Both the position numbers and the translations under genes were made by a program. The notes under the pieces were generated by a model. It did no database searches, was not told where the DNA came from, and saw only the letters and a program-made list of their open reading frames with translations. Shown here piece by piece: positions 7,539-59,719 of a stretch of DNA of 64,000 bases. Origin of the DNA: Prorocentrum cordatum (taxonomy: Eukaryota > Sar > Dinophyceae > Prorocentrales > Prorocentraceae); assembly GCA_963575745.1 (NCBI GenBank), contig CAUYUJ010014613.1, forward strand, positions 247,548-311,547. Direction: 5' to 3'. The first letter of the stretch is position 1; the number at the start of each line of letters is the position of its first letter.

Positions 7539-7559
7539 GTAAAAGCTAAGCCAAACCGG

Positions 7560-7579
7560 CTTCGAGCCAGACGCTACGG
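7560..7579 (-). promoter_or_regulatory. Spliced-leader-like relic upstream of N1 YR
   Basis: The minus strand reads CCGTAGCGTCTGGCTCGAAG, about 16 matches to the dinoflagellate spliced leader with one gap. A second partial copy, CCGGTTTGGCTTAG, follows before the ATG. It is either a fossil of trans-spliced RNA copied back to DNA or part of the acceptor region. Confidence 0.6.
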
Positions 7580-7794
7580 AAATCGTCACTGCACAATCTG
7601 CCGAGCAGCAGTCAATCATTATTCTCTGCAGCATTACCACACCACATGATCCTTGAACAGCGCCGGCCCTGACAATTCGAAAGTGAAGCCGGCTCGCGGG
7701 AAGCTGCAAAGAAGGACCCCTGCAATCGATTGCAGGCCACAAACGATGGATGAGATGATGACAGCCGATGCATTTCTCGATTGCACGGCCTTGT

Positions 7795-9909: not shown

Positions 9910-9912
9910 TCA
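9910..9912 (-). other. In-frame UGA between gag and RT of N1
   Basis: Gag ends CGC TGA AAC and the same frame stays open through the whole RT. The same arrangement occurs in N4, N5 and N7, so readthrough is the simplest way to make Gag-Pol. Confidence 0.65.
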
Positions 9913-11247: not shown

Positions 11248-11328
11248 GCTGACACGTGGTAGACAGAACAGCTGTTCAGAGTGGGCTGATTACCGAAGCA
11301 GTACGCAGAAGTGCACCACGAGAGTACC

Positions 11329-11346
11329 CTCAGCCGGCGGCTACGG
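11329..11346 (-). promoter_or_regulatory. Spliced-leader-like relic upstream of N1 gag
   Basis: The minus strand reads TCCGTAGCC followed by GCCGGCTGAGG, 81 nt before the gag ATG. The 5' eight bases of the leader match perfectly and the 3' half is degraded. N4 has the same arrangement 62 nt before its gag. Confidence 0.5.
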
Positions 11347-11629
11347 ACATGGAGCGAGAGAAACAATAGTACCCTGGGAGCACGGCACTCAGAGCGGTCT
11401 TCCGCTCTCCCTGCACACATCCATTTCACGGGCATCTTCACAGACAGGCTCGCTACAACTTCGGAAAGCGATGCCACTGAGCCCCCCGGAAGCTCGACCG
11501 CGCGCCCCTCGTCAGAGGCAACCCCAGGCGGCGACAAAAGATGGAGCGCCGCTTTTTCACGGCGATGATGGCAGATGCACGGGGGCTTGCGCACATCCCG
11601 TACTAAATGGACACGCGGCCGCCGCGCCG

Positions 11630-12800
11630 GAGCGCTGAGTCGCGCTCAATTTGCGAATCTGGGCGCGCCCCTGGCATCAGAACGCAGAAAAAGGAGCTCA
11701 GGATGCAATTCTGGGCGCGCGGACGCCCAGGAGCGCTAATTTGCGCTCAGATTGCGAATCTGGGTGCGCCTGGCACCAAAGTGCAGAAAACGAGCACAGA
11801 AAGCAATTCTGGGCATGCGGACGCCCAGAGGCGCTCAGATTGCGAATCTGGGTGCGCCTGGGCACCAGAACGCAGAGGGGAGCACAGAAAGCAATTCTGG
11901 GCGCGCGGACGCCCAGGAGCGCGAAGTTGCGCTCAGATTGCGAACCTGGCTGCGCCTGGGGACCAGAACGCAGAGAAGCGCACAGAATGCAATTCTGGGC
12001 GCGTGAACGCCCAGGAGCGCCAAGTCGCGCTCAGATTGCGAATCTGGGTGCCCCTGGGCACCAGAACGCAGAAAGGAGCACAGAAAGCAATTCTGGGCGC
12101 GCGGACGCCCAGGAGCGCGAAGTTGCGCTTAGATTGCGAACCTGGCTGCGCCTGGGGACCAGAACGCAGAGAGGCGCACATAATGCAATACTGGGGCGCG
12201 TGAACGCCCAAGAGCGCTAAGTCGCGCTCAGATTGCGAATCTGGGTGCGCCTGGGCACCAGAACGCAGACGGGAGCTCAGAATGCAATTCTGGGCGCGTG
12301 GACGCTCAGAACCACTCAGGTTGCGAATTGTGGTGCGCCTGGGTACCAGAACGCAGATAGGAGGCGCTCAGAATGCAATTCTGGGGCGTTCGGACGCCCA
12401 GGAGCGCTAATTCACGCTCAGATTGCGAATCTGGGTGCGCCTGGGCACCAGAACGCGAAAAGAGCACAGAATGCAATTCAGAGCACCATTCGCGCCTGGA
12501 TGCACACAGATCGGGAATCCTGGTACACCTAGGCACCAGGACGCAGAACGGAGACCAGTAAGCAATTCTGGGCGCGGGACGCCCAGGAGCGCTGAGTCGC
12601 GCTCAGATTGCGAATCCGGGTGCGACGTGGCAACAAAACGGAGAAAGGAGCACATAATGCAATTGTGGGCGCGCGGACGCCCAGGAGCGCTAAGTCGCGC
12701 TTAGATTGCGAACCTGGGTGCGCCTGGGCGCCGAAACGCAGAAAGGGAGCACAGAATTGCAATATGGGCCAGCGGACGCCACGAGTGCAGTCGCGCACAG
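11630..12800. repeat. N1 leader tandem array, about 99-bp unit
   Basis: Roughly eleven copies of a unit of about 99 bp. It contains CTCAGATTGCGAATCTGGG, TGCGCCTGGGCACCAGAACG and GCAATTCTGGGCGCGCGGACG. Two palindrome-like cores sit in each unit. Open frames across it are repeat artefacts. Confidence 0.9.
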
Positions 12801-15346: not shown

Positions 15347-15442
15347 GACGAAGAAAAGCATCGACCGCCGAGAAAAACAACATGCGTGCTTGCGTGTGCG
15401 GAGAGGTGCATGTGGCACGCTCGCCCTGCTCGGCCTGCCACT

Positions 15443-15461
15443 CCGTAGTGTGATGGCTCAG
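15443..15461 (+). promoter_or_regulatory. Spliced-leader-like relic upstream of N2 YR
   Basis: CCGTAGTGTGATGGCTCAG ends one base before the YR ATG at 15463. The first six bases and TGGCTCA match the leader; the middle has diverged and one base is missing. Confidence 0.55.
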
Positions 15462-20966: not shown

Positions 20967-20988
20967 TTGCTCCAATCGGCTACGGACG
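20967..20988 (-). promoter_or_regulatory. Spliced-leader-like relic at N4 YR start
   Basis: The minus strand reads TCCGTAGCCGATTGGAGCAA, directly followed by the ATG. The 5' CCGTAGCC is perfect and TTGG..CAA is kept, about 15 of 21 positions. It is the clearest YR relic after N5. Confidence 0.65.
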
Positions 20989-21304
20989 GAACCGCGCAGT
21001 GGACGACGAATGACGCCGAACAGGCGTAACGCGAGCACACATTGGCCACGGACCAGCTGACGGGCACACAGAACAATTTTCGGAGTCCGAGGCCCTGCGG
21101 AAACAACCTCGGCCACCAACTGCAGGAACCAGGGCCGAACCTCATGGGCCCGAATGGAAGCGCCCAGGGCGCCAAAAACAAACAGGAAACGGCGTTCCGA
21201 CAAGAGACCTGTCAAAGTGGCACGCAGAGATGAGGGTTTGTGCCGCACGATGGTGACGACGCCGCACCTGACAGCGAAAGTTCTTTTTCCACGGTCGGGT
21301 ACAG

Positions 21305-23431: not shown

Positions 23432-23434
23432 TCA
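23432..23434 (-). other. In-frame UGA between gag and RT of N4
   Basis: Context CGG TGA AGC. The frame downstream (SQASEDASASDADSTPTSVL...) is free of stops into the RT. The Ser/Asp-rich character just after the stop resembles N1 and N5. Confidence 0.65.
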
Positions 23435-24810: not shown

Positions 24811-24831
24811 CTCGAACCGTGGAGGCTACGG
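24811..24831 (-). promoter_or_regulatory. Spliced-leader-like relic upstream of N4 gag
   Basis: The minus strand reads CCGTAGCC then TCCACGGTTCGAG, 62 nt before the gag ATG, about 14 of 21 positions matching. The upstream T (TGTCCGTAGCC) is shared with N1. Confidence 0.5.
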
Positions 24832-25059
24832 ACATCACAGTAGCCACACAAGACCGCCGAGCAAAACGTGGGACGAGAAACGGGCAGACCCAGCAAAATC
24901 TGCGACGAGGAGCAGCAAACCAGCGCAAGCAGAAACGCCTTCACCAAGTTGCACCCAAAGGCGCCGGCGAAGCCGCGGTAGCTGGAAACGCCCAGCGTCA
25001 ACCAACGTTGACGGTCGTTGAGTTTGGTTACCGGCACGCCAGGATAACCTGGAATGAGC

Positions 25060-26935: not shown

Positions 26936-27041
26936 TCTGAAACGCTCACCTGGCGGCAAAAAATGAGACGATTTCTGCATCGTCATCTGTTGTGTGGTCG
27001 CCGTTGCTCGTCGTGTCCCGCTGGCATCGGGCAGCAGTAGT

Positions 27042-27063
27042 CAGTAGCCGGTTTGGTTCGAAG
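27042..27063 (+). promoter_or_regulatory. Spliced-leader-like relic upstream of N3 YR
   Basis: CAGTAGCCGGTTTGGTTCG then AAG, 17 nt before the ATG at 27081; 16-17 of 21 positions match with one extra base. The same sequence is at 59698 in N8. Confidence 0.6.
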
Positions 27064-27080: not shown

Positions 27081-28152
27081 ATGCTCCAATTTCTCGACAA
27101 AAGCCGGGCTGACACCTTCGGGGAGCGCGTCCAGTCCAGCTCCGCCCGCGATGATGGCGCTGCAGGGCCAGTTCCGAGTGCTGCCAGCTCCGAGCAGAAC
27201 GCAGAGCCACAGGATCAGGAGGGGTGCAGTTTGAGAGACAGGCTGCCAGTGCTCACCCGCCAGGGGTGGTTGTGGACGGTCTCTGGTCAGAGCTGGTTGG
27301 CTTTGGCGCCAGAGATGTGTATGAGTTCGCCGGCATCGACGTCGACGAGGCCCGGTTGGTGTGGACGCCGTTGGCGGGTTGCTCTGCACCTTTCGTTGGG
27401 AGATTTCTGCAGCTTTGCGAGGCGGGAATCGCCGGAGAGAGACGAAGCAGGCAGCCAGCGATGGCCTCGCACGGAGCTCCGCTTCCGGCAAGAGACGGGC
27501 AGCCTGGGCAGACGGGGCATCTGGCGGCAGCTTCTGGGCAGGCAGCGGCGCCGGCCGCGGCCAGCAGCATGGCAGCTTTAGCCTTGGTGGCGCAAGCCAG
27601 GCGCCGGTGCGAGCACTTGCCTCCAGGCGTGCTGGCTAGTGCCATCCGAGACATGGGCCGGCTGCCAGCGAATCCGTTCTCCCAGCAGGCGCATGCCCCT
27701 CGGGCAGCTGCAAAGAGAGCTCGAGTGAACGCTGGCACAGCGGCGGATTACGATGCGCAGGCCACTTGGCTCGAATTCGCAGGCTGGAAGAAGAGCGCCC
27801 CCCAGTACGCCAGCGCGGTGCAGCTCTGGGGCGAGGCAGCAGGCTTGGCCCGCGAGGAACCATGGCCACCGTCGCATGGGTCAGCTTGTGCATTTTGTTC
27901 GCTGTTCCGCAGCAGTGCCACATTGGGGAAATATCTCTCGCACATTCGGTCTGTGCTGTCGCTGCTGCGCGTTTCGCCTGGCTATCTCGCAGATACTACC
28001 CGGCTCGTGAAGGGCGCCGAAAAGGCCATGGCAGGCCAGACGAGGCCTCGCGTTTGGGCTACTGTTGCCCAGACTCGCGAACTTGTAGCTTGGGCCAGAA
28101 AGGCGGGCCGCCCAGATATCGGATGGTCGTGGGCAGTTTCGCGGCATTTTTG
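27081..28152 (+). pseudogene. N3 tyrosine recombinase, 5' part
   Basis: Starts MLQFLDKSRADTFGERV. Compared with N8, a 10-bp deletion near 27236 shifts the frame (GCSLR then RQAASAHPPG in another frame). The second frame then runs to SWAVSRHF, where N5 interrupts at the ggcatttttg/cttaagg junction. The rest is at 37213. Confidence 0.88.
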
Positions 28153-28525
28153 ATACCCCCTAAACCAAAGGTTTCGATGGGGAGGAAAATCTAAAGCCCC
28201 GCCTGATGTAAACCGGTTGGTGGATTCATCGGTTGATGGCTTTAACCGTGTACGTAAACTCGTGGGCAGTCACGGCTTGGGCTCCCGACGGAGCAGCGGA
28301 TTTCTTCCAAGGCCTGGTCGGCTCCAACTCGGAGCAGCGGTGGTCTTCGACAACTCCGGAGGCCGATCGGGGCACCGCCCGGCTCGGGGGCGGGATAGCA
28401 AGTTCCCGGCACCACGGCCGCCGCGGAGCAAGCGCCCTGCGGGGTGCACTCGCTCCACCGAGGGGTCTTTGCAAGCCCCAGTGGTCCACATAGTGGGCCA
28501 GGTGCTGTTCGCAGCGCCCGTGGTG
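28153..28525 (+). repeat. N5 A1 half-repeat with terminal hairpin
   Basis: Starts ATACCCCCTAAACC, then AAAGGTTTCGATGGGG, then AGGAAAATC. Near-identical to A2 at 36645-37018, with a few substitutions and one indel. Confidence 0.9.
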
Positions 28526-29030: not shown

Positions 29031-30240
29031 GGCGCCAGCACGCCCAGAATTGCATTCTACGCGCGATTCTGCACAATCTGGCGCCGGCGCGTCCAGGAGT
29101 GCAATCGCAGCGGATCCCTGCAATTGCGGTCAGGGCGCAAACTTGCGCATTGCACTCCGAATGCGCTCATTCTGGCGCCAGCCTGCCCGGAGTGTACCTG
29201 CCCTGGCTGAAATACCTGGTCACGTGCCCTTGCAGGCCGCACCCTTGCTGGCGCCTCCTCGTCGTGTGCCCGCGCATGTCTCTCCTGCGGGCCTGCTGGG
29301 CTGGCTCGCCGGCCACCCTGGCAGGGCTGCGCGTTTCTCGCTGGTACAGCGCCCGTATCTGTGCGCACAATCGCGCATTCTGGCGCTAGCGCGCCAGCAG
29401 GTGCTGTCCGGGCGCAAATCTGCACACTTTCGCGCTGGCCCGCCCAGAATTGCAATCGGGGCGCGAACCTGCGGAATCTGTCGCCAGCTCGCTCAGAATG
29501 GCATTCCGAGTTCTAATCCGCGCATTCTGGCGCCAGGGCGCTCAGAATTGCATTCGGGCCCCGACTCTGCGCAATCTGGCGCTCGCACGCCCCGAGTTGC
29601 AATCAGAGCTGGACTCCGCGCAATCTGGCGTTGGAGCGGGCAGGGTTTCAATCGGAGCTCGAATCTGCGCAATCTCGCGCTGGCGCGCCGAAGAGGCGAA
29701 CAGGCGTTTTCGGCGCTAGCGCGCCCAGAAATGCATTCTAAGCCGAATTTGCGCACTCTGCCGCCAGCGCACCCCGAATTGCATTCTGGGCGCGACTTGC
29801 GCATTCTGACTCTGGCGCGCCCAGGGATGCATGCTGAGGCCGAATTTGCGCAATCTGGCGCCCTCACGCCCAGAAGTGCCGTCGGAGGGAAACCTTCGCC
29901 TTTCGGGACTGGTGCGCCGAGAATTGCATCTGGAGGCCAAACCTTGTATTCTAGCGCAAGCGCGCTCAGATTCGCACTCTCAGCGCGAATTCGCGCGCCT
30001 GGGCGTCAGCGCGCTCAGAGTTGCAGTCTGAGCTCATTTGTGCGTTCTGGCGCCGATGCGCGCCCCGATTCGCAATCGGAGCGCTCGTGCTCCGAGGCGT
30101 CCGCGCGCCCAGAATTGCATTCAGAGCACACTTTTGCGTCGTGGCACTGCTCAGGTTCGCAATCAGCGCAAATTCGCGCTCCTGGGGGCACTGGAGCATC
30201 TCAGAGGACGGCTGCGCGAGAATCGTCCTGGGCGTGATTT
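29031..30240. repeat. N5 leader array 2, GCGCCCAGAATTGCATTC-type units
   Basis: About 25 copies of a unit of roughly 45-50 bp built on CGCCCAGAATTGCATTC and TCTGGCGCCAG. The core is the same near-palindrome seen in the M1 and N1 arrays. Confidence 0.85.
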
Positions 30241-30249
30241 CGCGGACCG

Positions 30250-31227
30250 CGCGAGCTAGAAGGAGCGGCTACGGACACTCTGGGGCACTCGGGGTCGGAT
30301 GTGCGCAGGCGGCAGAAGCTAGTCCTTGATGGGGGGGCATTGGCTAACCCCCCACCTGCACACAACGGGGGCGGGGGTGCTTTGCACTTGTGCAGCACGC
30401 CCGTCCTCGACCGACCCCGGGGGGTCCGCGTCCCAAACGGCACGTAATCGGAATATCGATGCTGACGCCCTTTCACCAGAGAATTCAGAATTAAATTCTG
30501 GTGTAGCTCGTGAAAATTGGGCTCAGGCCACTGGCCATTCGTTCCGCTACGGACGGATTTCTTAGGCGCAATTTTCGGGCAGTCCGAAAAATCTCAGGGC
30601 GACGACGCCCCCCTGCATTAGCGTGGGATGAGCGGAAGCCCCCCTCGCGTGCTGCCACTTGGCCAAAATAGGCCTCGGTACGCTGAAAAAAACTCCCTAC
30701 TCACTCTGGCCTGGCGGAGGGGGAGGAGCAGGGAGACCCATGTAGTTCCCCTGGCCGCTGAGCGGTCAAAGGGGTTCGACTGGGATCGGCGTGGCACTGC
30801 TGTAGCTTGCATGGTTTCGCCCCAAGCTGACCCGAGTGGCCCCCCTGGCCGCGATGGAAGTCAAAGGGGGGTCGCCGGGATGTGCGGCAGCGAGAGCTGT
30901 GCGAATTTGCATCCAGGGAAGGCGGAGCGGAGCGGAGGACTCTCTCCCCTTCCTTCCTTCGTGCTGGGGCTCAAGCGGCCGACGTGCCGTTGCGACAGCT
31001 GGGCGCGATCGGAAAACTGGCTGCTGGACGCAGGTGGGGGGTGCTCAGGAGGCTGAAACGGTGGTGCGCCCATGTCCCACAGAAAGAATGGCCGTGTCAG
31101 TCGCGTTGCAATGGCTCCAGGCGTTCATGCATTGGCTTCCGGAGTCGTCTGGGCTCAGAGTGATTGGTTGCTCTTTGCGTCCACGCTCTCACACACCACC
31201 TGCTGTAGCATTCGGGGACGCCGCATC
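30250..31227 (+). promoter_or_regulatory. N5 5' leader shared with N6
   Basis: Closely similar to 48050-48840 in N6 (estimated near 90% by eye), while the arrays upstream differ. It contains an inverted G/C run (TTGATGGGGGGG...CCCCCCAC), GCTCGTGAAAATTG, the palindrome-like CCGCTACGGACGG and TTTTCGGGCAGTCCGAAAA. A weak leader-like CTGTAGCATTCGGGGAC is at 31203-31219, just before the gag ATG. Probably a promoter and untranslated leader; the promoter itself is not identified. Confidence 0.55.
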
Positions 31228-32529
31228 ATGCCTCTTGAGTCAGGAAAGGTGCAGTCTTTGATCGCTAAGGTTCCAGAAGGCAAGTGGCTGAAGTTGTCGA
31301 GCAGTGCCATCGAAGAGTGGCTCCACTTCGTTGCGGACGCAAACGAGCCAATCAGCCACGACGAGGTGTTTTATGCCAGCGTCGCCCGAGTGATGTCCGA
31401 ACAGATGGGCTCAGCAGCGCCGTCGGACTTCGCGGACCCACAGATGCGCACTTTCATCATTGAAGGTATCCGCGCAAACACCACGCCGTTCCAAGACGAC
31501 CCTGAGGGATCGGAGTGGAAAGATGCGCGGCTCACCCCTGCGCACATCACGGCTGCTCTTGAAGCGCAAGCTCGGGCAGCAGGGTCTCAGAGCAACGGCC
31601 CGGCTGGCAGCGTTGAGCGCGGCACCGGGACCTCGCCAGAGCACCTGGCGAAGGCGATCGAGGCGCTTGCAAAGGCAACGCAAGAGCGAGACCAGCCCAA
31701 GAAGGAATACTTGTCTTTCAACTTGAAACAGCGCCTGGACGAGCTCGGTCTCGGGAATCTCCCAAAAGATATGATGCCCTCGGAGGAGGCTATGATTCGG
31801 TTGGAGAAAGCCAGCAAGGTTGCTAGGGACCAGGGCCGCCTTTATATTGGGTCGGCAGAGGGAGAGGACCTCCAAGTCTCCTTTCGCCCGCCGTGGTCGC
31901 GGACACCCAAGATCGACGTGACCGTCGGCGACGGCAGCTTCGAGGAGAAGCTGCGCAGCGCGGTAGAGGCGAAGAAAACGAGGAGCTTGGAGGACAGGAC
32001 CACTTTTGTGGGATTCGCTACGTTCTATGGACATATCCTGGACTGGGGCGTGAAGATGGTCCTCACGAAGGCCATCACCTCCACGCAGTTGCTCGCGTAC
32101 CAGATCGTACTCACCCGGGTGGCAGAAGAATACGGCGGCTTCAGGGTGTGCACACACTACGATCTCTTGCTCAGACAGAAGCTCGCCCGGGAGCTTGAAA
32201 GGGACGAGCGGTCGCAGATAGAGACGCTCCTGTGCACTCTGGACCGCGACGTGCTGGCGGACGCGAAGAACAGCGCTGAAAAGCGCGTGAAAGAGACCGC
32301 GAAGGCGGCCACGAAGACGGGCCAGGCCTCTGGCTCCCAGCCGTCGCGGCCGGCACCCGCTTCCAGCAAGGGAGGCGGCAAGGGACCCTCCAAGGGAGGC
32401 AAGCTGCCCGCCCAGCACCCCAAGGAGCGCCAGGTCTACTCTCCTGTGCGTTCGCGCAGCCCCAAGGGGAACGGTGACTGGTATGCCAAGAAGTGGGACA
32501 ACACCAAGAAGGGCGACAAGAAGTGGTGA
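31228..32529 (+). CDS. Gag-like protein of N5
   Basis: 433 aa. The ATG at 31228 was chosen over the upstream in-frame one at 31072 because the upstream part lies in the leader shared with N6 and has no counterpart in other gags. Blocks seen are: WLHFVADANEPISHDEVFY; LPKDMMPSEEAMIRLEKA; GSAEGEDLQVSFRPPWSRTP; FVGFATFYGHILDWGVKM; and EEYGGFRVCTHYDLLLRQKLAR. The basic tail is SKGGGKGPSKGGK and RSRSPKGNGDW. It ends KKW-UGA in the same frame as RT. Confidence 0.78.
   Translation: MPLESGKVQSLIAKVPEGKWLKLSSSAIEEWLHFVADANEPISHDEVFYASVARVMSEQMGSAAPSDFADPQMRTFIIEGIRANTTPFQDDPEGSEWKDARLTPAHITAALEAQARAAGSQSNGPAGSVERGTGTSPEHLAKAIEALAKATQERDQPKKEYLSFNLKQRLDELGLGNLPKDMMPSEEAMIRLEKASKVARDQGRLYIGSAEGEDLQVSFRPPWSRTPKIDVTVGDGSFEEKLRSAVEAKKTRSLEDRTTFVGFATFYGHILDWGVKMVLTKAITSTQLLAYQIVLTRVAEEYGGFRVCTHYDLLLRQKLARELERDERSQIETLLCTLDRDVLADAKNSAEKRVKETAKAATKTGQASGSQPSRPAPASSKGGGKGPSKGGKLPAQHPKERQVYSPVRSRSPKGNGDWYAKKWDNTKKGDKKW
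32527..32529 (+). other. In-frame UGA between gag and RT of N5
   Basis: Context TGG TGA GCT. The frame continues AGSQSASDASGDHPEALP... without a stop into the RT. N5 is otherwise intact, so this is unlikely to be random decay. Confidence 0.7.
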
Positions 32530-34830
32530 GCTGGTTCGCAAAGCGCCAGCGATGCGTCTGGGGATCATCCAGAAGCTCTTCCCCTCGCGCAAGAGACTTG
32601 CGAAGATAGTCTCGACGGGTCCGTCGGTTTTGCCACGGATCTGCATGAATTACAAGCTGAAGTGAACAGCTTGTTGCAAGATGTACATAGACTTGCTAAC
32701 ATGTCGCCTGTAAGCCATTTCAAGTGGGCGTTTGCCCTGCCTCCTTGCTTAGGCGTCTTCCGTGTACCTGCCAGCGCGCACAGCTCAGTTCTTCATGAAA
32801 GTGGGGATAGGAGCTCTTTACACAGCTTCCGGGCGTCTGCCTTAGCTTTCTGGCGCGAACGCAAGCGAGTGACAGATTTTGAATGGCAGCGGGAGTTCAG
32901 AACACTCCCAGCACACGTGCAAGCCGTTCTAGGCCCGGACAAAAACTTGCTTTTGCTGGCAGAGATGCTGGAGGCATCGAGTAGCCCAGACGCTCAATTA
33001 GTTAAAAATTTAAGGCGTGGTTTCAAGCTCGTTGGGGAGATCCCCCCGAGCGGCACGCTCCCCGCATGCTCACCTGTTCCGCCCTTGTCGTTAGAGGAAC
33101 TCTGGCGACGCGCACCTGCGAACAACGCAGCGCTGATTTTGAGAGCGGCTTCTTCTACCCTGTCGGATGAAGAAGCGGCAGCAGCACTGCGGGCGCAGAC
33201 GGCAGCCGAGGTGGTGGCAGGTAAAGCTAGATGGACGCCGTTGTCGGCGACACTCAGCGAGGCGGTGTGTTCTCCACGTTTCGGAGTAGACGAGGGGTGG
33301 AAGTTTAAAGGTTCATCTTTTGTGCGCGCTGTCCGCGCCATTGATGATTTTCACGCTTCCAAGGTGAACGAAGCCACGCAAGTCGAGGAGCGGGTGCGTC
33401 ACGAGCACCTCGACGCACTAGTAGCAATTGGCCAAGGCATCTGGGAAGCAAGTGGGCCAGATAGAGGCCCAGCAACACTTCGTCTTCGCAAGGATGACGT
33501 TGTAGGCGCATACAAGACTTTGCCGATTTGCGCGGATGACCTGCCTTGCGCTGTGGCCGTTACAGAGGACGCGGCGCGAACAGGCTTCGCGTTGCAGCTC
33601 TTTTCTTGCCCGTTTGCGGCTGTTGCAAGCGTGCATGCATGGCACCGCGTCGGTGCTGCGCTCCAACACGTGCTTGTAGAGCTGTTCCGCATTTTATACC
33701 CGCGTTTTGTCGATGACTTCTTCGGCGTCGACCGCGCGACGCCGGGAGATACTGCCCTCACAGGACCGAGTGGTGCTGCATTTCTTGCGCGCGAAGTCGT
33801 GCAAGAATTGTTGGGTTGGCAGCTGGACGACGCGAAAGCTGTCACCGACGCTTCTGTAGCCGTAATTCTCGGCATCCAGGTTGCCCTGGATGATGCCCGG
33901 GAGCTTTTCGTCTTTAGCATTCCCGAGGCAAAGCGCGTGAAGTGGATTGCTGAGATCGATAAGATTCTCGAATTGGGCATGCTGTCGCCGGCGCTGGCCC
34001 GGAAGCTAGCAGGGAAACTGAGTTGGGGAGCAACGATGGTGTTTGGCAGGAGCGCAAGAGTGTATCTTGCAGCTCTGTTCTTCCACTCGGCCCGTCGTCT
34101 CTCCAAACTCTCTCTGCGCCTGCGCCGGGCTTTCCACTGGTGGCTTCGCTTTTTGCAATCCAACCCTCGCCGCGAGATACCCTACCTGCCAGCTGCGCGG
34201 CCCCGGTTGGTCATTTATACCGACGCAGCGGGGTGCGGAGCACTCGCGTGGGTTCTCGCGCAGGGCAACCAAAAGCAGTTCGCCCGAGCGTGGGTCCCGC
34301 GATGGCTTCGCGACAGAGTGAAGCCGCGCCGGCAGCAAATCGGCACGTGGGAGCTCATTGCTGCGGTGTGTGGCCTTTGGCACGCGTACACCTTTCTGGA
34401 GCCAGGGTTGGAGATTTTGTTATTCGTGGATTCCAACCCAGCGCTCGGAGCATTGCTCAAAGGGACGTCCAGGCAGATCGATTGGAATGCTTTAGTGACG
34501 TCCATTTGGTTCGCGGCAGCAGACAGGGGCGACGTCTTGTGCCCCTTCCGCGCGCCGTCTGCTCAGAACCTTGCAGACGCCCCGTCCAGAGCCCATGAAG
34601 AGCCAGACAAACTGCGCACTCTGCTCGAGCAAGGGTTCGAGGAGGTGCACTGGCGCTGGCCGGAAGCAAGCGTTTGGGACGAGCTCTGGCGAGGACAGAC
34701 GCGAGCGCAGGAGGGAAAAAGTTGCACGCAACAGTTGACCGTCGTGGCCTTCTCTTCTGGCTTCGCGGCCACCTGCCTGTCGCAGCCTGCCCCCTCATTC
34801 CGTAGCCGGTTGGGCACAAGCGTTTCTTGA
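32530..34830 (+). CDS. Reverse transcriptase/RNase H of N5
   Basis: 766 codons open after the UGA; the first in-frame ATG is 32701. Motifs are LGPDKNLLLLAEMLEA, RAIDDFHASKVNEATQ, RKDDVVGAYKTLP, CPFAAVASVHAWHR and FVDDFFGVD (catalytic DD near 33709-33717). RNase H follows: IYTDAAGCG, WELIAAVCGL, FVDSNPALGAL, QNLADAPSR. A 45-residue tail runs over the leader relic and its TGA overlaps the YR ATG by one base (TGATG). It supplies cDNA synthesis for N5 and could act on related copies. Confidence 0.92.
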   Translation, partial: AGSQSASDASGDHPEALPLAQETCEDSLDGSVGFATDLHELQAEVNSLLQDVHRLANMSPVSHFKWAFALPPCLGVFRVPASAHSSVLHESGDRSSLHSFRASALAFWRERKRVTDFEWQREFRTLPAHVQAVLGPDKNLLLLAEMLEASSSPDAQLVKNLRRGFKLVGEIPPSGTLPACSPVPPLSLEELWRRAPANNAALILRAASSTLSDEEAAAALRAQTAAEVVAGKARWTPLSATLSEAVCSPRFGVDEGWKFKGSSFVRAVRAIDDFHASKVNEATQVEERVRHEHLDALVAIGQGIWEASGPDRGPATLRLRKDDVVGAYKTLPICADDLPCAVAVTEDAARTGFALQLFSCPFAAVASVHAWHRVGAALQHVLVELFRILYPRFVDDFFGVDRATPGDTALTGPSGAAFLAREVVQELLGWQLDDAKAVTDASVAVILGIQVALDDARELFVFSIPEAKRVKWIAEIDKILELGMLSPALARKLAGKLSWGATMVFGRSARVYLAALFFHSARRLSKLSLRLRRAFHWWLRFLQSNPRREIPYLPAARPRLVIYTDAAGCGALAWVLAQGNQKQFARAWVPRWLRDRVKPRRQQIGTWELIAAVCGLWHAYTFLEPGLEILLFVDSNPALGALLKGTSRQIDWNALVTSIWFAAADRGDVLCPFRAPSAQNLADAPSRAHEEPDKLRTLLEQGFEEVHWRWPEASVWDELWRGQTRAQEGKSCTQQLTVVAFSSGFAATCLSQPAPSFRSRLGTSVS
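34800..34820 (+). promoter_or_regulatory. Best-preserved spliced-leader-like relic (N5 YR)
   Basis: CCGTAGCCGGTTGGGCACAA plus G matches 17 of the 21 positions of the dinoflagellate leader (CCGTAGCC...TTGGCTCAAG) without gaps, 9 nt before the YR ATG. It is inside the 3' end of the RT frame. Confidence 0.7.
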
Positions 34831-36356
34831 TGGCCTTCCAGTTTATCGATGCTTCCCGGCGGCGCCATCTGGAGGCCGCCCGGGGCGCGCAGGTGCCGCA
34901 GCAGACTCCTGTGCCAACAGAGCTGAAGGCATGGTTCCAGAGTGTGCTGGCCCGGACGCCAGCTTCGTGCCATCCGGCATCGCCTGACGCAGTCTTGCAG
35001 GCGCTGGCCGATTCTGGCGCTGTTCATGGCGGCGACCTCCAAGGCCTTTCAGCAGCAGAGTTGCGAGAAGTGTGGCCACCTCTCAGAACGCTGTCCGATG
35101 ACTTCCTGCGTTCCGTGTCGTGGCAGACGGGCGCGCGCGGTTCAAGCGCCGTCGTGCCTAAGTTGAAAAGACACAAGCCAGAACGCTTTTGTGAGCAAGA
35201 ACTGCCTCCCGGGAGGCCGGCTGCCAGGGCGGCGGCCGACGAGCTTTCTGCAGCAGTGGAAGTTTTGGTGCAATCCAGAGCTCAGAGATGTGCGCCTCCC
35301 GCTGATGTCCTGGCGCAATCAATTTCTGTCATTTGCAGAGCGCCAGCTCCGGGACTGCATGACGGCGCCGCGGCCTCATCTCTGCCATCGGCGAGAGCGC
35401 GGTGGCTGGCGCAAATTCCGGCGGAGCGTCGTGATGATGTGCTCCGCGGCCGCATGCTGCTCCAGGAAATGGAAAACTGGCGACAGAGTGGACAAGGCTA
35501 CGCATCAGCTGTGCGATTGTGGGGCAGGCTGGCAGCGGCAACTGGCGTACCAGAGTGGCCGCCTGATCAGGTGGTGCTCGCAGCGCTTGTATTTGCAGTC
35601 CCACGGGCGTCCACGCTGTCCCGGTACTGTTCTCATTTGCGGTCCACGCTCAGGCTTATACAGGCGCCTTTGGGGTCGCTGGCTGACACGAGTATGCTAG
35701 TCAAAGGCGCCCAGAAGAGCTGCACTTCTGCGCCGCGCCTCAAGGCCACTGCGTCTGCGAGGCAGACCCGCGAACTCGCGGGCTACGCCCGGGACGTGTT
35801 GCAAGACGCGGAGCTCGCAGACAGTTGGGTCGTGGCCAGACATTTCACATTGAGGTATGGCTGTGAAGTACTTAAACTAGGTGCCGACCCGTCGCACTCT
35901 GAAGTGCGGTGCCACGTCCGTGACAATGTGTCTGAGGTTACCGTCGTTTTGCACAGAAGGAAAATGCAAGACAAATCTGTGCATGTGGTGCGGCAGTGCA
36001 TTTGCAAGTCCGCATCGCCAGACTTGTGCGGGGTCTGCGTCTTGCGTCGACGTTGCGGCCAGGGAGCAGTATTTCCAATCCTCCAGTACGACAGGGCTTT
36101 AGCAGCATTGAAAACTGCAGCTCTAGAACTTGGTTTCCCGAGAGGAGCAGAATGGGGCACCCACTGCTTCCGCCGCGGTTGGGCCAATGACGCCCTGCGC
36201 CATGGGGGAGTGCCAGCCTTGTTTTATTCAGGCGGCTGGCGTGGCTTAGCTGCGTTCGGCTACGCCGCGGCGCAGACGAAGGGGGAAGTTCTGGCTGCTA
36301 AGTGGGCAGCAGAGTTTTCCGATTCGTCAGACGATGGATCAGGCGTAGAGAGTTGA
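34830..36356 (+). CDS. Tyrosine recombinase of N5
   Basis: 508 aa, start MAFQFIDASRRRHLEA. Catalytic set: Arg342 (FTLRYGCEVLKLG), Lys in HRRKMQDKS, His445 and Arg448 (GTHCFRRGWAND), Trp in SGGWRGL and Tyr478 (AAFGYAAAQ). Between Lys and His is CICKSASPDLCGVC, a C-x-C-x7-C-x2-C cluster conserved in all copies. The tail is EFSDSSDDGSGVES. Role: joining circular element DNA to the target. Uninterrupted and complete. Confidence 0.92.
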   Translation: MAFQFIDASRRRHLEAARGAQVPQQTPVPTELKAWFQSVLARTPASCHPASPDAVLQALADSGAVHGGDLQGLSAAELREVWPPLRTLSDDFLRSVSWQTGARGSSAVVPKLKRHKPERFCEQELPPGRPAARAAADELSAAVEVLVQSRAQRCAPPADVLAQSISVICRAPAPGLHDGAAASSLPSARARWLAQIPAERRDDVLRGRMLLQEMENWRQSGQGYASAVRLWGRLAAATGVPEWPPDQVVLAALVFAVPRASTLSRYCSHLRSTLRLIQAPLGSLADTSMLVKGAQKSCTSAPRLKATASARQTRELAGYARDVLQDAELADSWVVARHFTLRYGCEVLKLGADPSHSEVRCHVRDNVSEVTVVLHRRKMQDKSVHVVRQCICKSASPDLCGVCVLRRRCGQGAVFPILQYDRALAALKTAALELGFPRGAEWGTHCFRRGWANDALRHGGVPALFYSGGWRGLAAFGYAAAQTKGEVLAAKWAAEFSDSSDDGSGVES

Positions 36357-36536: not shown

Positions 36537-37212
36537 GGGGCGCTTCTCTCGGGGCTCTCACTCGCCTGTCGCGCCGGCAGCGTCCAGATTCCTGGCCCAC
36601 TGCAGGCGCGCCCACTCCACCAGAAGGCGGGCAAATAGATTTTCATACCCCCTAAACCAAAGGTTTCGATGGGGAGGAAAATCTAAAGCCCCGCCTGATG
36701 TAAACCGGTTGGTGGATTCATCAGTTGATGGCTTTAACCGTGTACGTAAACTCGTGGGCAGTCACGGCTTGGGCCCCCGACGGAGCAGCGGATTTCTTCC
36801 AAGGCCTGGTTGGCTCCAACTCGGAGCAGCGGTGGTCTTCGACAACTCCGGAGGCCGATCGGGGCACCGCCCGGCTCGGGGGCGGGATAGCAAGTTCCCG
36901 GCACCACGGCCGCCGCGGAGCAAGCGCCCTGCGGGGTGCACTCGCTCCACCGGGGGGTCTTTGCAAGCCCCCAGTGGTCCACATAGTGGGCCAGGTGCTG
37001 TTCGCAGCGCCCGTGGTGTTGTTTGTCATCGCCTTCGTCGTTGCCCGCCCGCCCGCCCTTATGGCTTGGTGTGGCTTCTGGGGAGTGTGGGGCCGGCGCG
37101 TGGCGGGGCGCTTCTCTCGGGGCTCTCACTCGCCTGTCGCGCCGGCAGCGTCCAGATTCCTGGCCCACTGCAGGCGCGCCCACTCCACCAGAAGGCGGGC
37201 AAATAGATTTTC
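36537..37212 (+). repeat. N5 3' split-repeat block (B1-A2-B2)
   Basis: B1 36537-36644 and B2 37105-37212 are 108 bp each. A2 is 36645-37018 and filler is 37019-37104. At the join GCAAATAGATTTTC meets ATACCCCCTAAACC...GGGGAGGAAAATCT. So the site that a circularised N5 would carry is already present inside the linear copy. Confidence 0.9.
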
Positions 37213-37705
37213 CTTAAGGTATTCTGAAGCCTTATGTCTCGGAACTCAATCTGCACCTTTCCGCTTTGTCGGGTCGGGCTCTGGTTAGGAGGCAGTGGTT
37301 ACGTTTATGCAGCGGAAGTGCTACCGGGCCCCCGTGGAGGTGTCGCGCACATGCATGTGCACCGGGAGGACACAATCCTTGTGCGGCGTGTGTGCGCTGC
37401 GGCAGGCGGCCGAGAAGTGCCCGGAGCCTTTTTCGCACGTACGGTACTCGGAGGCGCTGGCTTTCCTCAAGGCGGCGGCTACAGCGTTGCACTTTGTGAA
37501 CGCCCAGCACTGGGGGACCCACGCGTTTCGCAGGGGGTTCGCAGATGATGCCCTGCGGGCTGGGGGGACTTCAGCGCTCTTCTGGTCGGGCGGCTGGAGA
37601 GGCCTGGCTGCCTTCGGGTACGCTACTGCGCAGTCCCGAGGATCCCTGGCGGCTGCTGAGTGGCTGGTCGAGCACTCAGAGTCGAGTGGCGGCGAGAGCG
37701 GCTAG
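37213..37705 (+). pseudogene. N3 tyrosine recombinase, 3' part
   Basis: Resumes with CTTAAGGTATTCTG, i.e. (C)LRYSEALCLG. A TAG at 37286-37288 replaces the Ser codon of N8. It then continues through FMQRKCYRAP, GTHAFRRGFADD, WSGGWRGLAAFGYATAQS and HSESSGGESG. It retains the HxxR His that N8 has lost. Confidence 0.9.
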
Positions 37706-39340: not shown

Positions 39341-41178
39341 TGAAAGTCAGATCCGCGCATTGTGGCGCAGGCCAGCCCAGAGTCGCAACAGCACATCTCC
39401 GCGCATTCTGGCGCAGGCGCGCCTAGAAGCGCAAATGAAGCGCGGCTCCACGCATTCTGGCGCAGACCCGCCTAGAATCGCAAACGGGGCGCGAGTCCGC
39501 GCTGGCGCAGGCGCGCCCAGACTCGCATCTGGAGCGCGGTTCCGCGCATTATAGCGCAGACGCGCCCAGATGGCAAACTGAACGCAAATCCGCGCGGTTT
39601 TGCGCAGGCGCGCCCAAAATCGCACACGGTGTGGATCTCACCGCATTCTGGCGCAGGCGCGCCCAGAATCGCAAACGGAGCGCAAATTCGCGCGTTCTGG
39701 CGCATCGCAAACGGCCCGAATCAGCGCATTCCAGCGCAGATGCGCCCAGAATCGCAAGTGGAGCCCGAATCCGCGCATTTCTGAGCAGGCGCGCCCAGAA
39801 TGACAACTGGAGCGCGATTCCGCATTCTCTGGCGCACGCGCGCTTAGAAGCGCAAATGGAGCGCGACTCCGCATTTTCTGGCGCACGCGGGCCGAGAAGC
39901 GCAAATACAGCGCAACTCCGAGCATTCTGGCGCAGGCGCGCCTGAATCGCAGGAGAAGCGCGAACCCGCGCATTCTGGCGCAGGCGCGTCCAGAGTCGCA
40001 AATCGAATGCGAATCCGCGCATTCGTGCGCAGGCGCGCCCAGAATAGCAACTTGAGCGCGATTCCGCGCATTCTAGCAGGCGCGCCCGGAATCGCCAATA
40101 GAGCGCGGCTCCGCGCAATCTTGCGCAGCCGCGCCCAGGATGACAATTGGAGCGCGATTCCGCGCATTCTGGAGCAGGCGCGCCCAGAATCATCAATGGA
40201 GCGCGACCCCGCGCATTCTGGCGCGGGCGCGCCCAGAATCGCAAATGGAGCGCGACTCCGCGCATTCTGGCACAGGCGCGCCCAAAAATCGCAAACGGAG
40301 CGCGAGTTTGCATTCTGGCGCAGGCGCGACCAGAATCGCAACTGGAGCGCGGCTCCGCACAGTCTTGCGCACGCGTCTTGAATCGCACATGGAGTGGAGT
40401 GTGCAGGGCGCCCAGACTGACAACTAGAGCGCGATTCCGCGCATTCGGGCGCAGGCGCGCCCCGAATCGCCAATAGAGCGCGGCTCTGCGCATTCTGGCG
40501 CAGGCGCGCCCAGAATCGCAGATGGAGCGAGATTCCGCGCATCCTGGCGCAGGCGCGAAACCGAGCGCGACTCCGCGCATTCTGGCGCGGGCGCGCCCAG
40601 AATCGCGAATGGAGCGCGACTCCACGCATTCTGGCGCAGGCGCCCCCGGAATCGCAAGCATTCTGGCGCAGGCGCGCCCAGAATTGCAACTAAGCGCGAA
40701 CCCGCAAATTCTTGCGCGGGCGCACCCAGATTCACACATGGAGTGGAGCTCAGCGCGTTCGGACGCAGGTGCGCCCAAAATCGCAAATGGAACGCGAATT
40801 CGCGTGTTCTGGCGCAGGCGCGCCCAAAAGCGCAAATGGGTCCCGAATCAACGCATTGTGGCGCAGGTGCGCCCAGAATCGCATGTCTGCGCAGGCGCGC
40901 CCAGAACGACAACTGGAGCGCGATTCGGCATTCTCTGGCGCAGGCGCGCCTAGAAGCGCAAATGGAGCGCGACTTCGCACTCTCTGGCGCACGCGCGCCG
41001 AAAAGCGATACAGCGCGACTCCGCACAGTCGATCGCAGGCGAAGCGCGAACCTGCGCATTCTGCGCAGGCGCGTCCAGAGTCGCAAATTGAACGCAAATC
41101 CGCGCATTCTTGCGCAGGCGCGCCCAGAATGACCACTGGAGCGCGATTACGTGCATTTTGGCGCAGGCGCGACCGGAA
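39341..41178. repeat. Minisatellite array, about 49-bp unit
   Basis: About 38 copies of GCGCCCAGAATCGCAAATGG plus AGCGCGACTCCGCGCATTC plus TGGCGCAGGC. N6 is inserted at its right side and the array continues at 54673. Long minus-strand open frames (ARLRQNA repeats) are period artefacts. Confidence 0.92.
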
Positions 41179-44506: not shown

Positions 44507-44527
44507 GCTGGGCCAGAGCTCCGGAAC
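44507..44527 (-). promoter_or_regulatory. Weak spliced-leader-like relic at N7 YR
   Basis: TTCCGGAGCTCTGGCCCAGC immediately precedes the ATG. It needs a gap of about four bases to fit the leader, so it is the weakest of the eight YR cases. Confidence 0.35.
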
Positions 44528-48049: not shown

Positions 48050-49031
48050 AGCTAGAAAGAGTGCCTGCGGACACTCTGGGCACTCGGGGCCGGATGTGTG
48101 CAGGCGGCAGAAGCTAGTCCTTGATGGGGGGGCATTGGCTAACCCCCCACCTGCACACAACGGGGGCAGGGGTGCTTTGCACTTGTGCAGCACGCCCGTC
48201 CTCGACCGACCCCGGGGGCCCGCGTCCCAAACGGCACATAGTCGGAATATCGATGCCGACTCCCTTTCACCAGAGAACTCAGAATTAAATTCTGGTGTAG
48301 CTCGTGAAAATTGGGCTCTGGCCACTGGCCATTCCGTCCGCTACGGACGGATTTCTTAGGCGCAATTTTCGGGCAGTCCGAAAAAATTCAGGGCGACGAT
48401 GTCCGTCCGCATTAGCGTGGGATGAGCGGAAGCCCCCTCGCCTGCTGCCACTTGGCCAAAATAGGCCTTGGTACGCTGAAAATGACTCCCTCTATTCACT
48501 CTGGCCCGGCGGAGGGGGAGGAGCAGGGAGACCCATGTAGTTCCCCTTTCGACTGGGATCGGCGTGGCACTGCTGTAGCTTGCATGGTTTCGCTCCAAGG
48601 TGACCCGAGTGGCCCCCCTGGCCGCGATGGACGTCAAAGGGGGGTCGCCGGGATGTGCAGCAGCGAGAGCTGTGCGAATTTGCGTCCAGGGAGAGCGGAG
48701 CGGAGCGGACTCTCTCCCCTTCCTTCCTTCGCGCTGGGGCTCAAGCGGCCGACGTGCCGTTGTGACAGCTGGGCGCGATCGGAAAACTGGCTGCTGGACG
48801 CAGGTGGGGGTGCTCGAAAGCCTGAAACGGTGGTGCGCCCATGTGCCACAGAGGGATGGCCGTGTCAGTTGCGTTGCCAAAGGGTCCAGGCGTTGTCGAC
48901 ATTACCCCGTGTTTCCTACACACGCCCGTTGCTGTGATGACTCAGAAAGACAGGCGCTGCCAAGTTCACTCGGCCCCTCCGGCCCAGCAAAGATGTCCCA
49001 AGTACTATGCATTCTAAAGGCTACACTCAAC
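48050..49031 (+). promoter_or_regulatory. N6 5' leader shared with N5
   Basis: Matches 30250-31070 of N5 closely, with small indels, then diverges toward gag. A leader-like CCGTTGCTGTGATGACTCAG is at about 48926-48945, resembling the N2 YR relic. An upstream in-frame ATG at 48993 precedes the gag start. Confidence 0.5.
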
Positions 49032-52298: not shown

Positions 52299-52395
52299 CG
52301 GGCATGCATTCGCGAGGAAGGAAAAAAGTGCGCAGATGTTGCTTCGTCAGCGTTTCTTGCCGCGTGCGGCGGCGCACGGCCTCCCACGCAGTCAT

Positions 52396-52416
52396 CCGTA
52401 GTCAGCTTGGCCCAAC
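52396..52416 (+). promoter_or_regulatory. Spliced-leader-like relic at N6 YR start
   Basis: CCGTAGTCAGCTTGGCCCAA plus C, flush with the ATG at 52417; 16 of 21 positions match without gaps. Confidence 0.62.
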
Positions 52417-54672: not shown

Positions 54673-55157
54673 TCGCCAATAGAGCGCGGCTCCGCGCATT
54701 CAGGCGCAGGCGCGCTCAGAATCGCAAATAGAGCGCGATCCGCGTATTCTGGCGCAGGCACGACCAGAATCACAACGCGAGCGTGCCTCCGCATTCTGGC
54801 GCAGGCGCGCCCAGAATCGCAAAGAGTCCGCGCATTTTGGCGCAGGCGCGCGCAGATTCGCAAATGGAGCGCGAATCCGCGCGCCCAGAATTGCAACTAA
54901 GCGCGACTCCGCGCATTCTGGCGCCAAGATTGTCATTCCAAGCGCGTTTCTGCGCTTGGCGGCGCAGGAGGCGGCCCAAATCGTCTTCGGGGCGAGGTTG
55001 CCAAATCTTTGGCGCAGGGCGCCCGCAGTGGTATTCTGAGCGCAGTTCCGCGCTCAGCGGCGCTGGTGCGCCCAGAATTGCGATTGCACGCGATTCAGCG
55101 GTTGCCTGCGTTGCAGGGCGCCGTGCGCTTAGATTGGCATTAGTGAATGCAGTTTTC
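54673..55157. repeat. Minisatellite array, continuation between N6 and N8
   Basis: Same 49-bp unit as 39341-41178 for about 250 bp, then related units (CGCAGTTCCGCGCTCAGCGG). N8 is inserted after GCAGTTTTC. Confidence 0.85.
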
Positions 55158-55990: not shown

Positions 55991-56134
55991 GCAGGCCGTG
56001 GCGCAGCATTGCCAGGCGTTCTGACTTCCCACGTTGGGCACCTGCCCGGGTGTTCCGGAGTTGTTTGGGCTCGAGCGTGACTGTTCGTTCTGCGCCGCAC
56101 GCCCCCTTCTGACTCACTGCGCGTCTCCAACGTG

Positions 56135-57630: not shown

Positions 57631-59703
57631 GTGCATAGCTTTCTGCAGAATCCGGCAGTCGCAAGCTTCGGCCCATTGGATCATTTAGAGTGGGCTCTGC
57701 AATTGCCTGCGGGCGACGGTCTGCCAGAGGTGCCGGAGTCCATCGCTGCCTCTCTCTCTTCCGCCCTCAGCCTTGACGGGCAACTGCTGGCGCAGGCTCG
57801 GGCCGGCAGTCTCGCGCACTGGCGTGAGCGCAAGCGTGTGCTGGACCCACTTTGGGCGCGTGAGTTCGGGCTGCTGCCCGCGCACGTCCAGAGGGTACTC
57901 GGTCCGAAGAAAAATTTGCTTGTGCTCAGCGAGATGCTCGAGGCCATTGCGTGGCCCGACGCTCGTCTCGTAGCCAATCTTCGGGATGGATTTCCGCTTC
58001 TTGGCCAGATTCCGCGCAGTGGCGTGCTTCCCCAAATTCCGTTTGGGGGGTGCTCCCAGTCGGCGGCGAGTTTACGCGCGCAGGCTGATGCTTTAAACGC
58101 AGAGACGCTCTGCCGTGTTCGGCGGCCAGCGGGTCTGGAGGACTCGGTGCGAGCGCTCTTTGTAGCAAAATGCGAACAGGAGGTCAGCGACGGCCATGCG
58201 AGGTGGCGATCTTTGCCTGGCAATTGCGTCCTAACTGCTCGGTTTCCAGCCGACGAGGGCTGGAAAGGTCACTCCCGCAAAGTGCGGTGCATCGACGATT
58301 TTTCGGCATCTCTTATAAATGCCGCCGTGTCTGTGGGTGAAACCATCCAACAGGACACGCTAGACCGTTTCTTGGCAGTCCTCTGCGCGGTTCTCGAAGC
58401 AGGACCCGGCGGAGCCGCGATACGCAAGGAGGACTTCGTTAGTGCTTTTAAGACCCTCCCGCTTGCTAGTTCCCATCTCCACTTCGCGGTGGTGACGTGG
58501 GACTCGGCCGAGAGCCGCGGGCTGGGGCTGCAACTTCTGGCCTGTCCTTTCGGCGCGGTGGCGTCCGTCTACAATTGGGAGCGCTTCGGAGCGGCAATCA
58601 GATCAGTTCTGGCTCGCCTGTTTTCCGTTGTGTTCCTCAGGTTGGTTGACGATTTATTCGGCGCAGACCCAGTCGTCCCAGGCGCGCCGTTCCTTGCCAC
58701 GCCGGCTGGTGCCAGCGAGGTCGCGCGCGAAGTTGTGGAGGAATTGCTTGGCTGGGAATTTGATGCCTCCAAGCGGGTGTCGGAGGCAACATCCGCGTCC
58801 ATTTTGGGAGTGGAGGTCTCTGTGGATTCCGATGCGCAGGCGATCCATCTGCAGATTGCCCTGGCCAAGCTCTCTCAGTGGAATTCGCAAATTCGCGCGA
58901 TTTTGAAGCGAAGCCGGCTGCGCCCAGCTGAGGCTAAGAAGTTGGCCGGGCGGCTTAGTTGGGGTGCTTCCGCAGTTTTCGGCCGGGCGGCGCGGGTGCA
59001 TTTGGCGCCACTTTTCAAGCAAGCGTCCGGTAACTCTTCTGCCCTGACTGGGCGGGTCGCGCGGTCGCTGCAGTGGTGGCTGCGTTTCCTCGAGGGCGTG
59101 CCGCGGCGCGCAGTGCTGTGCTCGTCCCCGGCGGCGCGACGCCGGTGCATTGTTTACTCGGACGCTACTGGACGTGGCAGTTTGGCATGGGCCATCTGCT
59201 TGCCGGACCGGCGTCTTTGGTCTGCGTCCGCCGTGCCCGACGCAGTGTGGCGGTGGGCACGTTGCCGGAAGAACCAGGTGGCAACGTGGGAATTAATGGC
59301 TGCCATCTGTGCTCTCCACTGGCTGTTAAGCGAGCAGCTCGGTGATCTGGAGGTTCTGCTTTATGTGGACAACCAGACAGCCCTTGGCACTCTCGTGCGG
59401 GGCTCTTCCAGACAGCCTGATTGGAACGATCTGATCGGCGACCTCTGGCTTCGCGTGGCCAGGGCTGGGATGCTTTTATATAGCTTCTACGCTCCGAGCC
59501 ATTTAAATCTAGCAGATGCACCCGCGAGACCGCGGGAAAAAGCTGCAGCGCTGGAGGCAATGCAGGCGGCAGGCTTTACGGACGTTCCGTGGAGCTGCCC
59601 ACCAGACGCGGCAAAAAAATGGGACGATTTCTGCATCGTCATCTGTTGTGTGGTCGCCGTTGCTCGTCGTGTCCCGCTAGCATCGGGCAGCAGTAGTCAG
59701 TAG
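57631..59703 (+). CDS. Reverse transcriptase/RNase H of N8 (no ATG; one frame off gag)
   Basis: The frame is open from about 57520 to 59703. Motifs are LGPKKNLLVLSEMLEA, RCIDDFSASLINAAVS, RKEDFVSAFKTLP, CPFGAVASVYNWER, LVDDLFGAD (Phe to Leu before DD), VYSDATGRG, WELMAAICAL, YVDNQTALGTL and LNLADAPAR. The C-terminus is AAKKWDDFCIVICC... instead of APWL: about 31 bp with the original stop is missing relative to N3. A single-base frameshift from gag makes expression doubtful unless frameshifting occurs. Confidence 0.85.
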   Translation: MHSFLQNPAVASFGPLDHLEWALQLPAGDGLPEVPESIAASLSSALSLDGQLLAQARAGSLAHWRERKRVLDPLWAREFGLLPAHVQRVLGPKKNLLVLSEMLEAIAWPDARLVANLRDGFPLLGQIPRSGVLPQIPFGGCSQSAASLRAQADALNAETLCRVRRPAGLEDSVRALFVAKCEQEVSDGHARWRSLPGNCVLTARFPADEGWKGHSRKVRCIDDFSASLINAAVSVGETIQQDTLDRFLAVLCAVLEAGPGGAAIRKEDFVSAFKTLPLASSHLHFAVVTWDSAESRGLGLQLLACPFGAVASVYNWERFGAAIRSVLARLFSVVFLRLVDDLFGADPVVPGAPFLATPAGASEVAREVVEELLGWEFDASKRVSEATSASILGVEVSVDSDAQAIHLQIALAKLSQWNSQIRAILKRSRLRPAEAKKLAGRLSWGASAVFGRAARVHLAPLFKQASGNSSALTGRVARSLQWWLRFLEGVPRRAVLCSSPAARRRCIVYSDATGRGSLAWAICLPDRRLWSASAVPDAVWRWARCRKNQVATWELMAAICALHWLLSEQLGDLEVLLYVDNQTALGTLVRGSSRQPDWNDLIGDLWLRVARAGMLLYSFYAPSHLNLADAPARPREKAAALEAMQAAGFTDVPWSCPPDAAKKWDDFCIVICCVVAVARRVPLASGSSSQ

Positions 59704-59719
59704 CCGGTTTGGTTCGAAG
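59698..59719 (+). promoter_or_regulatory. Spliced-leader-like relic upstream of N8 YR
   Basis: CAGTAGCCGGTTTGGTTCG then AAG, as in N3, 19 nt before the ATG at 59739. Confidence 0.6.

Follow-up and report, generated by a model that had tools for sequence, protein, structure and literature searches.

The window, a stretch of 64,000 nt on contig CAUYUJ010014613.1 of Prorocentrum cordatum (assembly of 4,128,499,153 bases in 21,875 contigs), contains eight copies (N1–N8) of a retrotransposon. Element N5 extends from repeat A1 (28148) to repeat B2 (37212) and has the layout A-coding-B-A-B (Table 1). Split direct repeats of this kind are expected of an Ngaro/PAT-like YR retrotransposon (DIRS order), and were looked for in N5, the one copy examined in this respect. 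Three ORFs lie between the repeats, specifying a gag-like protein, a putative RT-RNase H (RT-RH) and a putative recombinase (YR), and the ATG of YR overlaps the stop codon of RT-RH (TGATG, nt 34828–34832). At least 40 genome-wide matches to a 701-base piece of N5, among 60 candidates, are 96–100% identical, so that the N5 family has probably moved recently.

Several other features were seen in the window. A YR core fragment (nt 37199–37663, + strand) begins at N5 repeat B2, and therefore another element seems to adjoin N5. Repeats of about 49 nt, arranged in tandem, are found at several places in the window (nt 11629–12780, 29369–29879, 39351–41178 and 54695–54914) and could belong to long element leaders. 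A GGAAAAA-like run is found just 3' of the RT-RH stop, or of its usual place, in seven of the eight copies, N1 being the exception (about nt 21284 and 44625 on the − strand, and 26960, 34716, 52320 and 59612). An ORF of 764 aa (nt 843–3137, + strand) weakly matches an IS1595-like transposase domain (E 4e-06), its matches to OTU and R3H domains being below threshold; CGTAGCC and TGGCTCAA fragments occur around its ATG.

Table 1. Coordinates in the window of the N5 features and of the spliced-leader-like blocks in copies N1–N8 (fractions give matches to the leader over 21 positions).
Feature	Position (nt)	Strand	Remarks
N5 repeat A1	28148..28525	+	98.4% identical to A2
N5 gag-like ORF	31228..32529	+	ATG chosen by alignment with other copies; frame open from 31072
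N5 RT-RNase H ORF	32662..34830	+	in gag frame, behind one TGA
N5 YR ORF	34830..36356	+	508 aa
N5 repeat B1	36537..36644	+	100% identical to B2
N5 repeat A2	36640..37018	+	98.4% identical to A1
N5 repeat B2	37105..37212	+	100% identical to B1
N1 block before YR	7560..7580	-	14/21 ungapped, 17/21 gapped; ATG 7538
N1 second block	7546..7559	-	CCGGTTTGGCTTAG; adjoins first block, lacks first seven leader letters
N2 block before YR	15442..15461	+	15/21 gapped; ATG 15463
N3 block before YR	20967..20986	-	13/21 ungapped, 15/21 gapped; abuts ATG 20966
N4 block before YR	27041..27063	+	15/21 ungapped; ATG 27081; near-copy of N8
N5 block before YR	34799..34820	+	TCCGTAGCCGGTTGGGCACAAG, 17/21 to CCGTAGCCATTTTGGCTCAAG; 9 nt before ATG 34830
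N6 block before YR	44508..44525	-	14/21 gapped, weakest in window; ATG 44506
N7 block before YR	52395..52416	+	16/21 ungapped; abuts ATG 52417
N8 block before YR	59697..59719	+	15/21 ungapped, 17/21 gapped; ATG 59739
N1 block before gag	11328..11347	-	ATG 11247
N3 block before gag	24811..24832	-	ATG 24748
N5 block before gag	31138..31160	+	67 nt before ATG 31228
N7 weak block before gag	48925..48945	+	score 6; ATG 49032
N8 block before gag	56054..56075	+	ATG 56135

The N5 YR protein returned no match in Pfam, PHROGs or PDB, and the N5 RT-RNase H protein none in Pfam or PDB. Among nine relatives compared, the R, K, HxxR-like, W and Y positions of YR are invariant and, from these motifs, the ORF is a putative tyrosine recombinase. 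The FVDD and RNase-H-like motifs are invariant or nearly so in four copies of the RT-RH ORF, which is presumably, again from its motifs, a reverse transcriptase with RNase H. These proposed identities rest on the motifs, the repeat layout and a likeness to the layout of SymbioDIRS. In the available text of the paper on that Symbiodinium element (PMC5890265) its RT is said to align poorly with Pfam seeds, as was the case here. Twenty YR-related proteins were found in public data among 8000 candidates, while no relative was confirmed in viral contigs. Further YR loci were collected with a protein search using the N-terminus of N8 YR (best 150 of 870 candidates scored) and gag loci with a gag search (best 150 of 828 candidates scored), which also revealed open frames of up to 1773 aa in some other copies.

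Gag and RT-RH occupy one frame with a single TGA between them in N5 (nt 32527–32529, + strand), N1 (nt 9910–9912, − strand) and N3 (nt 23432–23434, − strand), an arrangement that suggests stop-codon readthrough. Against this model, the two are in different frames in N8. With the shared frame, only gag and YR would need starts of their own; gag and RT-RH may form one translation unit, with YR needing its own message.

Sequences resembling the dinoflagellate spliced leader (SL; reference CCGTAGCCATTTTGGCTCAAG, matches counted over 21 positions) had been noticed in an earlier note immediately upstream of YR in all eight copies. Blocks are indeed present in every copy, but N4 is a near-copy of N8, and therefore the eight represent at most seven independent cases. 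When both strands of the window were scanned without gaps, the best match was the N5 block (nt 34800–34820), with the 17/21 given in the note, and the second best was that of N7 (nt 52396–52416), which the note had rated as weaker. The 15/21 of N4 was reproduced, but the figure of about 16/21 for N1, N3 and N8 was too high without gaps (14, 13 and 15) and is matched or nearly so with them (17, 15 and 17). No clear ungapped match exists at the YR sites of N2 and N6; N2, called weaker in the note, reaches 15/21 with gaps, while N6, at 14/21 with gaps, falls short of the about 16/21 assigned to it. Five ungapped matches score 15/21, two of them before the YR ORFs of N4 and N8 and one before N8 gag; the remaining two are inside the YR ORFs of N4 and N8 and are without meaning for the SL reading. 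Ungapped scores alone are modest evidence because, of 100 simulated windows, one gave a match of at least 17 and 26 a match of at least 16. The weight of the window evidence lies in position and repetition rather than in these scores. An HMM built from ten families outside the window plus the SL returned the YR blocks of N5, N7, N4, N8, N3 and N1 as its first six hits in the window; those of N2 and N6 are not among the hits listed.

Across the genome, 98 YR starts were scored (93 distinct), and nine of the 98 fetched loci (L001–L098) were left out as their YR start could not be placed. Five starts that are second views of a locus already included (L001, L009, L020, L021 and L023) are counted in the tally of scores up to 18/21 but were dropped from the within-family tests. 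One representative was taken of each of 17 YR families (N4 was left out as a near-copy of N8), with protein identities of 19–71% over the compared stretch. Over the 75 nt that precede the YR ATG, the 17 representatives have gapped SL scores averaging 10.29, compared with a mean of 2.84 (sd 0.67, maximum 4.18) for 60 permuted SLs, so shuffled sequence, proposed as a check in the earlier note, did not score equally well. In sixteen of the 17 families this score exceeds that of each of 21 control windows from the family's own upstream region; the MLQFIGKS family is weak, with six of its 21 control windows scoring as well. Without the SL as a guide, TCCGTAG emerged as the most shared 7-mer before the YR ATG, being present in 14/17 families and in 0/136 control windows. 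The block lies 0 to 31 nt before the YR ATG (0–1 nt in 9/17 representatives). Relic dinoflagellate SLs (DinoRL) were reportedly first described in host retrogenes by Slamovits and Keeling. The DinoRL feature of an SL-like sequence directly before the coding region is thus found in all 17 YR families, one of them weak, which upholds the observation made in the window and extends it well beyond. All of the 98 scored starts match the SL at 18/21 positions or fewer. Places that match the canonical SL with two mismatches at most number 33,832 in the genome (16,858 + 16,974), or about one per 122 kb, and the first hundred of these, among the matches listed, are all exact; the reversed pattern occurs at nine (7 + 2), and the genome therefore contains many leader copies.

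A comparison with other ORFs, also proposed in the note, separated YR from RT-RH but not from gag. In the RT-RH start regions of N1, N3, N5 and N8 no SL-like block was found (126/200 permuted leaders were as good), while gag starts carry one that the note had not mentioned. In the same four copies it lies 59–80 nt before the gag ATG and has a mean SL score of 7.75, or 7.4 if N7 is added; in either case 0/300 permuted leaders were as good. Eighteen fetched gag starts, some families being represented repeatedly, gave a mean of 8.72 against 3.76 for permuted leaders (sd 0.65, maximum 5.56 in 100), with the block 52–91 nt before the ATG save for one doubtful case at 40. The significance holds for these sets; single starts scoring 5–6 prove little.

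Decay of relic leaders should scatter deviations from the SL evenly along the block. In the YR blocks of the 17 families, however, SL positions 1, 3, 5, 6, 14 and 15 never deviate, while positions 9–10 deviate in 14/17, often to G. The variance of deviations among positions is 18.2, compared with a mean of 2.9 and a maximum of 8.1 in 5000 permutations; alignment to the SL favours overall likeness but hardly this unevenness. Gag blocks are likewise uneven (0/5000 permutations as uneven), with a different profile, based on 17 rows: five come from the window and 12 from the fetched set of 18, omitting the near-copies L099, L104, L107, L109 and L111 and the doubtful L113. In these, positions 14–18 are firm, and positions 1–6 deviate in 19/102 cells compared with 3/102 in YR.

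A second line of evidence comes from copies of the same family. Within nine families (85 copies), substitutions make 10/63 sites variable in the heptamer TCCGTAG and 19/127 in the rest of the block. Between families, substitutions from the SL number three in the heptamer and 54 in the rest, a contrast with the within-family figures that is significant (p = 0.0007) and persists if the same nine families alone are used (2 vs 27, p = 0.02) or gaps are counted (3 vs 77, p = 7.5e-5, for all families; 2 vs 37, p = 0.0028, for the nine); in this test the SL is assumed to be ancestral, and families that are related count as independent. Single copies lose TCCGTAG freely, and persisting lineages keep it. 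Within families, variable columns are not rarer in the block as a whole than at YR third codon positions (28/190 vs 34/270, p = 0.58), nor does the block differ clearly from first plus second positions (55/540, p = 0.11). It is less variable than the 100 nt upstream (209/900, p = 0.009), although two families (54/100 and 51/100), in which alignment trouble is possible, account for most of the upstream excess. Judged by its position profile and the within- and between-family contrast, the block does not behave as the neutral decaying remnant that a DinoRL is. Selective constraint on the block is supported by these comparisons. The earlier note had left a choice between a fossil leader and a site kept under selection; the position-specific deviations, the heptamer contrast and the lack of any start above 18/21 favour its second alternative and not a passive fossil.

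The reading we favour, and hold to be somewhat more probable than its negation, is that the block is an SL-derived trans-splice acceptor before YR and gag, kept by selection. The blocks at the YR starts fit the proposal that a separate YR mRNA is produced by trans-splicing. The element would be transcribed as one long RNA, and the host SL would be joined after the AG of TCCGTAG before YR, giving a YR mRNA of the form SL-CC..GGC.CAAG-AUG. A second joining before gag would give the gag mRNA, from which RT-RH would be read past the in-frame UGA. The block would most likely derive from SL-bearing RNA that was returned to the element by copying, with its first seven letters held since. Acceptor use, the two mRNAs, UGA readthrough and this origin are the inferred parts of the model. 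Copying back of leader-bearing RNA, which the earlier note had also considered, remains a likely origin, as the second block of N1 begins where expected.

The AG at SL positions 5–6 is present in 17/17 YR families. In host retrogenes, according to the accessible text of PMC12014239, the first seven nucleotides of a relic are missing because a further SL was joined at the AG of that relic, and the part of PMC3229502 that is available likewise describes their loss when the next SL was joined there. The conserved TCCGTAG is the very stretch that, as these accounts have it, is removed from host relics. The second block of N1, which matches at 10/15 at the single expected position (p = 0.0008), would thus show, in DNA, the expected product of SL joining at the AG; a tandem block without the first seven nucleotides, as in DinoRL, has so far been seen in N1 only. 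Another reading of tandem blocks, given in the available portion of PMC6616646, is splicing from tandem-SL genes. Some observations fit the acceptor reading less well. In gag rows the A of the AG deviates in 6/17 and the G in 2/17 and, the AG being so often lost, the acceptor there may be another AG. The splice-site context before YR is weak, pyrimidines making up 0.61 of positions −20 to −10 (background 0.51) and the previous AG lying slightly further upstream than expected (p = 0.046). An acceptor role alone also leaves the kept GG at positions 14–15 and C18 unexplained.

In one alternative the block acts in the RNA itself and not as an acceptor: it would form the 5' end of a YR RNA that is started internally, or would attract ribosomes. 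Conservation covers the length of the leader, beyond the AG, the block abuts the ATG in about half of the representatives, and a GCC/GGC hairpin is largely retained (its stem pairs occur in 16/17, 16/17 and 14/17, the rest being mostly gaps). The hairpin evidence is no more than suggestive; the A5–T17 pair is present in 7/17 only, and the stem shares columns with the alignment to the SL. The spacing between block and ATG, moreover, is variable at YR and mostly far greater at gag. We regard this alternative as unlikely, though it deserves some weight. An accidental likeness, or one imposed by the overlapping RT-RH or YR frame, is very improbable. The N5 block does lie within the RT-RH frame, ending near its stop, and ungapped matches of 16 or more are not rare in simulated windows, but the permuted-SL and k-mer controls speak against chance. 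Families differ in the frame that the block has relative to YR, and in several of them stop codons intervene before the ATG; the differing frames speak against protein-level constraint on the block.

The remaining alternatives accept an SL origin and dispense with selection. In one, SL-bearing YR or gag mRNA is occasionally reverse-transcribed and its cDNA switches back to the long RNA, renewing an SL that then decays again. The edges of the block about coincide with the start and end of the SL: in 17/17 rows (located, it should be said, by T-initial strings) a T precedes CCGTAG or its variant, and because this T is constant and the base before it mixed, the left edge of the block is the left edge of the SL. 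The two tandem blocks of N1 also agree with re-installation. However, refreshing is disfavoured because none of the 98 starts exceeds 18/21 despite tens of thousands of near-canonical leaders in the genome, and the frequent change to G at positions 9–10 is unlike random decay from a fresh SL; we consider it rather unlikely. A passive fossil, in which YR RNA with its SL was copied back on one or a few occasions, leaving a leader that simply decays, we think quite doubtful. Relic leaders are common in dinoflagellate genes, to go by the accessible parts of PMC12014239 and PMC7245778, the genome holds the many near-canonical SLs counted above, and single copies do lose the heptamer. Yet the deviations are position-specific in both YR and gag, the heptamer differs in its behaviour within and between families, and the block is found in all 17 families despite their widely diverged proteins.

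The blocks resemble DinoRL, as described in the available text of PMC12014239, PMC3229502, PMC7245778 and PMC6616646, in being SL-derived genomic DNA just before a coding region, and in the tandem second block of N1 without the first seven letters. Unlike the DinoRL of those accounts, they are found inside a retrotransposon, twice per element and in every sampled YR family; they are uneven by position, with the heptamer held between families, and no YR start among the 98 scored is near canonical. The term 'spliced leader' is absent from the main text of the SymbioDIRS paper (PMC5890265), as far as that text is available. Another genetic parasite associated with the host leader is dinoRNAV, a Symbiodiniaceae RNA virus that carries a 5' dinoSL, also has endogenous copies and has been proposed as a case of molecular mimicry (PMC10235124, accessible sections). 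There, as those sections state, the leader is found at an end of the RNA or no more than 500 bp from an endogenous copy, whereas the P. cordatum block is internal, degenerate, DNA-encoded and conserved between families. No earlier report of SL-derived blocks in YR retrotransposons was found in the literature searched, which was judged mostly by titles and abstract openings and covered subscription journals sparsely.

SL relics serve as tags of dinoflagellate retrogenes, and the parts of the reports available put the tagged genes at 22–25% of Symbiodinium genes (PMC12014239) or at more than 20% (PMC11453091). The leader-derived block described here appears to be under selection, and cannot therefore serve as a neutral fossil, which bears on how SL relics are read. 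Looking more widely, we see an even chance that a whole retrotransposon lineage has domesticated the host SL, turning a copied-back leader into a heritable, selected acceptor before gag and YR. If so, the element would obtain separate mRNAs from one long RNA, much as the host obtains its own from polycistronic RNA, and whenever the product was copied again the same signal would be rebuilt. It would represent a mobile element that uses SL trans-splicing to express several proteins from one RNA, with a trans-splicing signal made from the leader itself.
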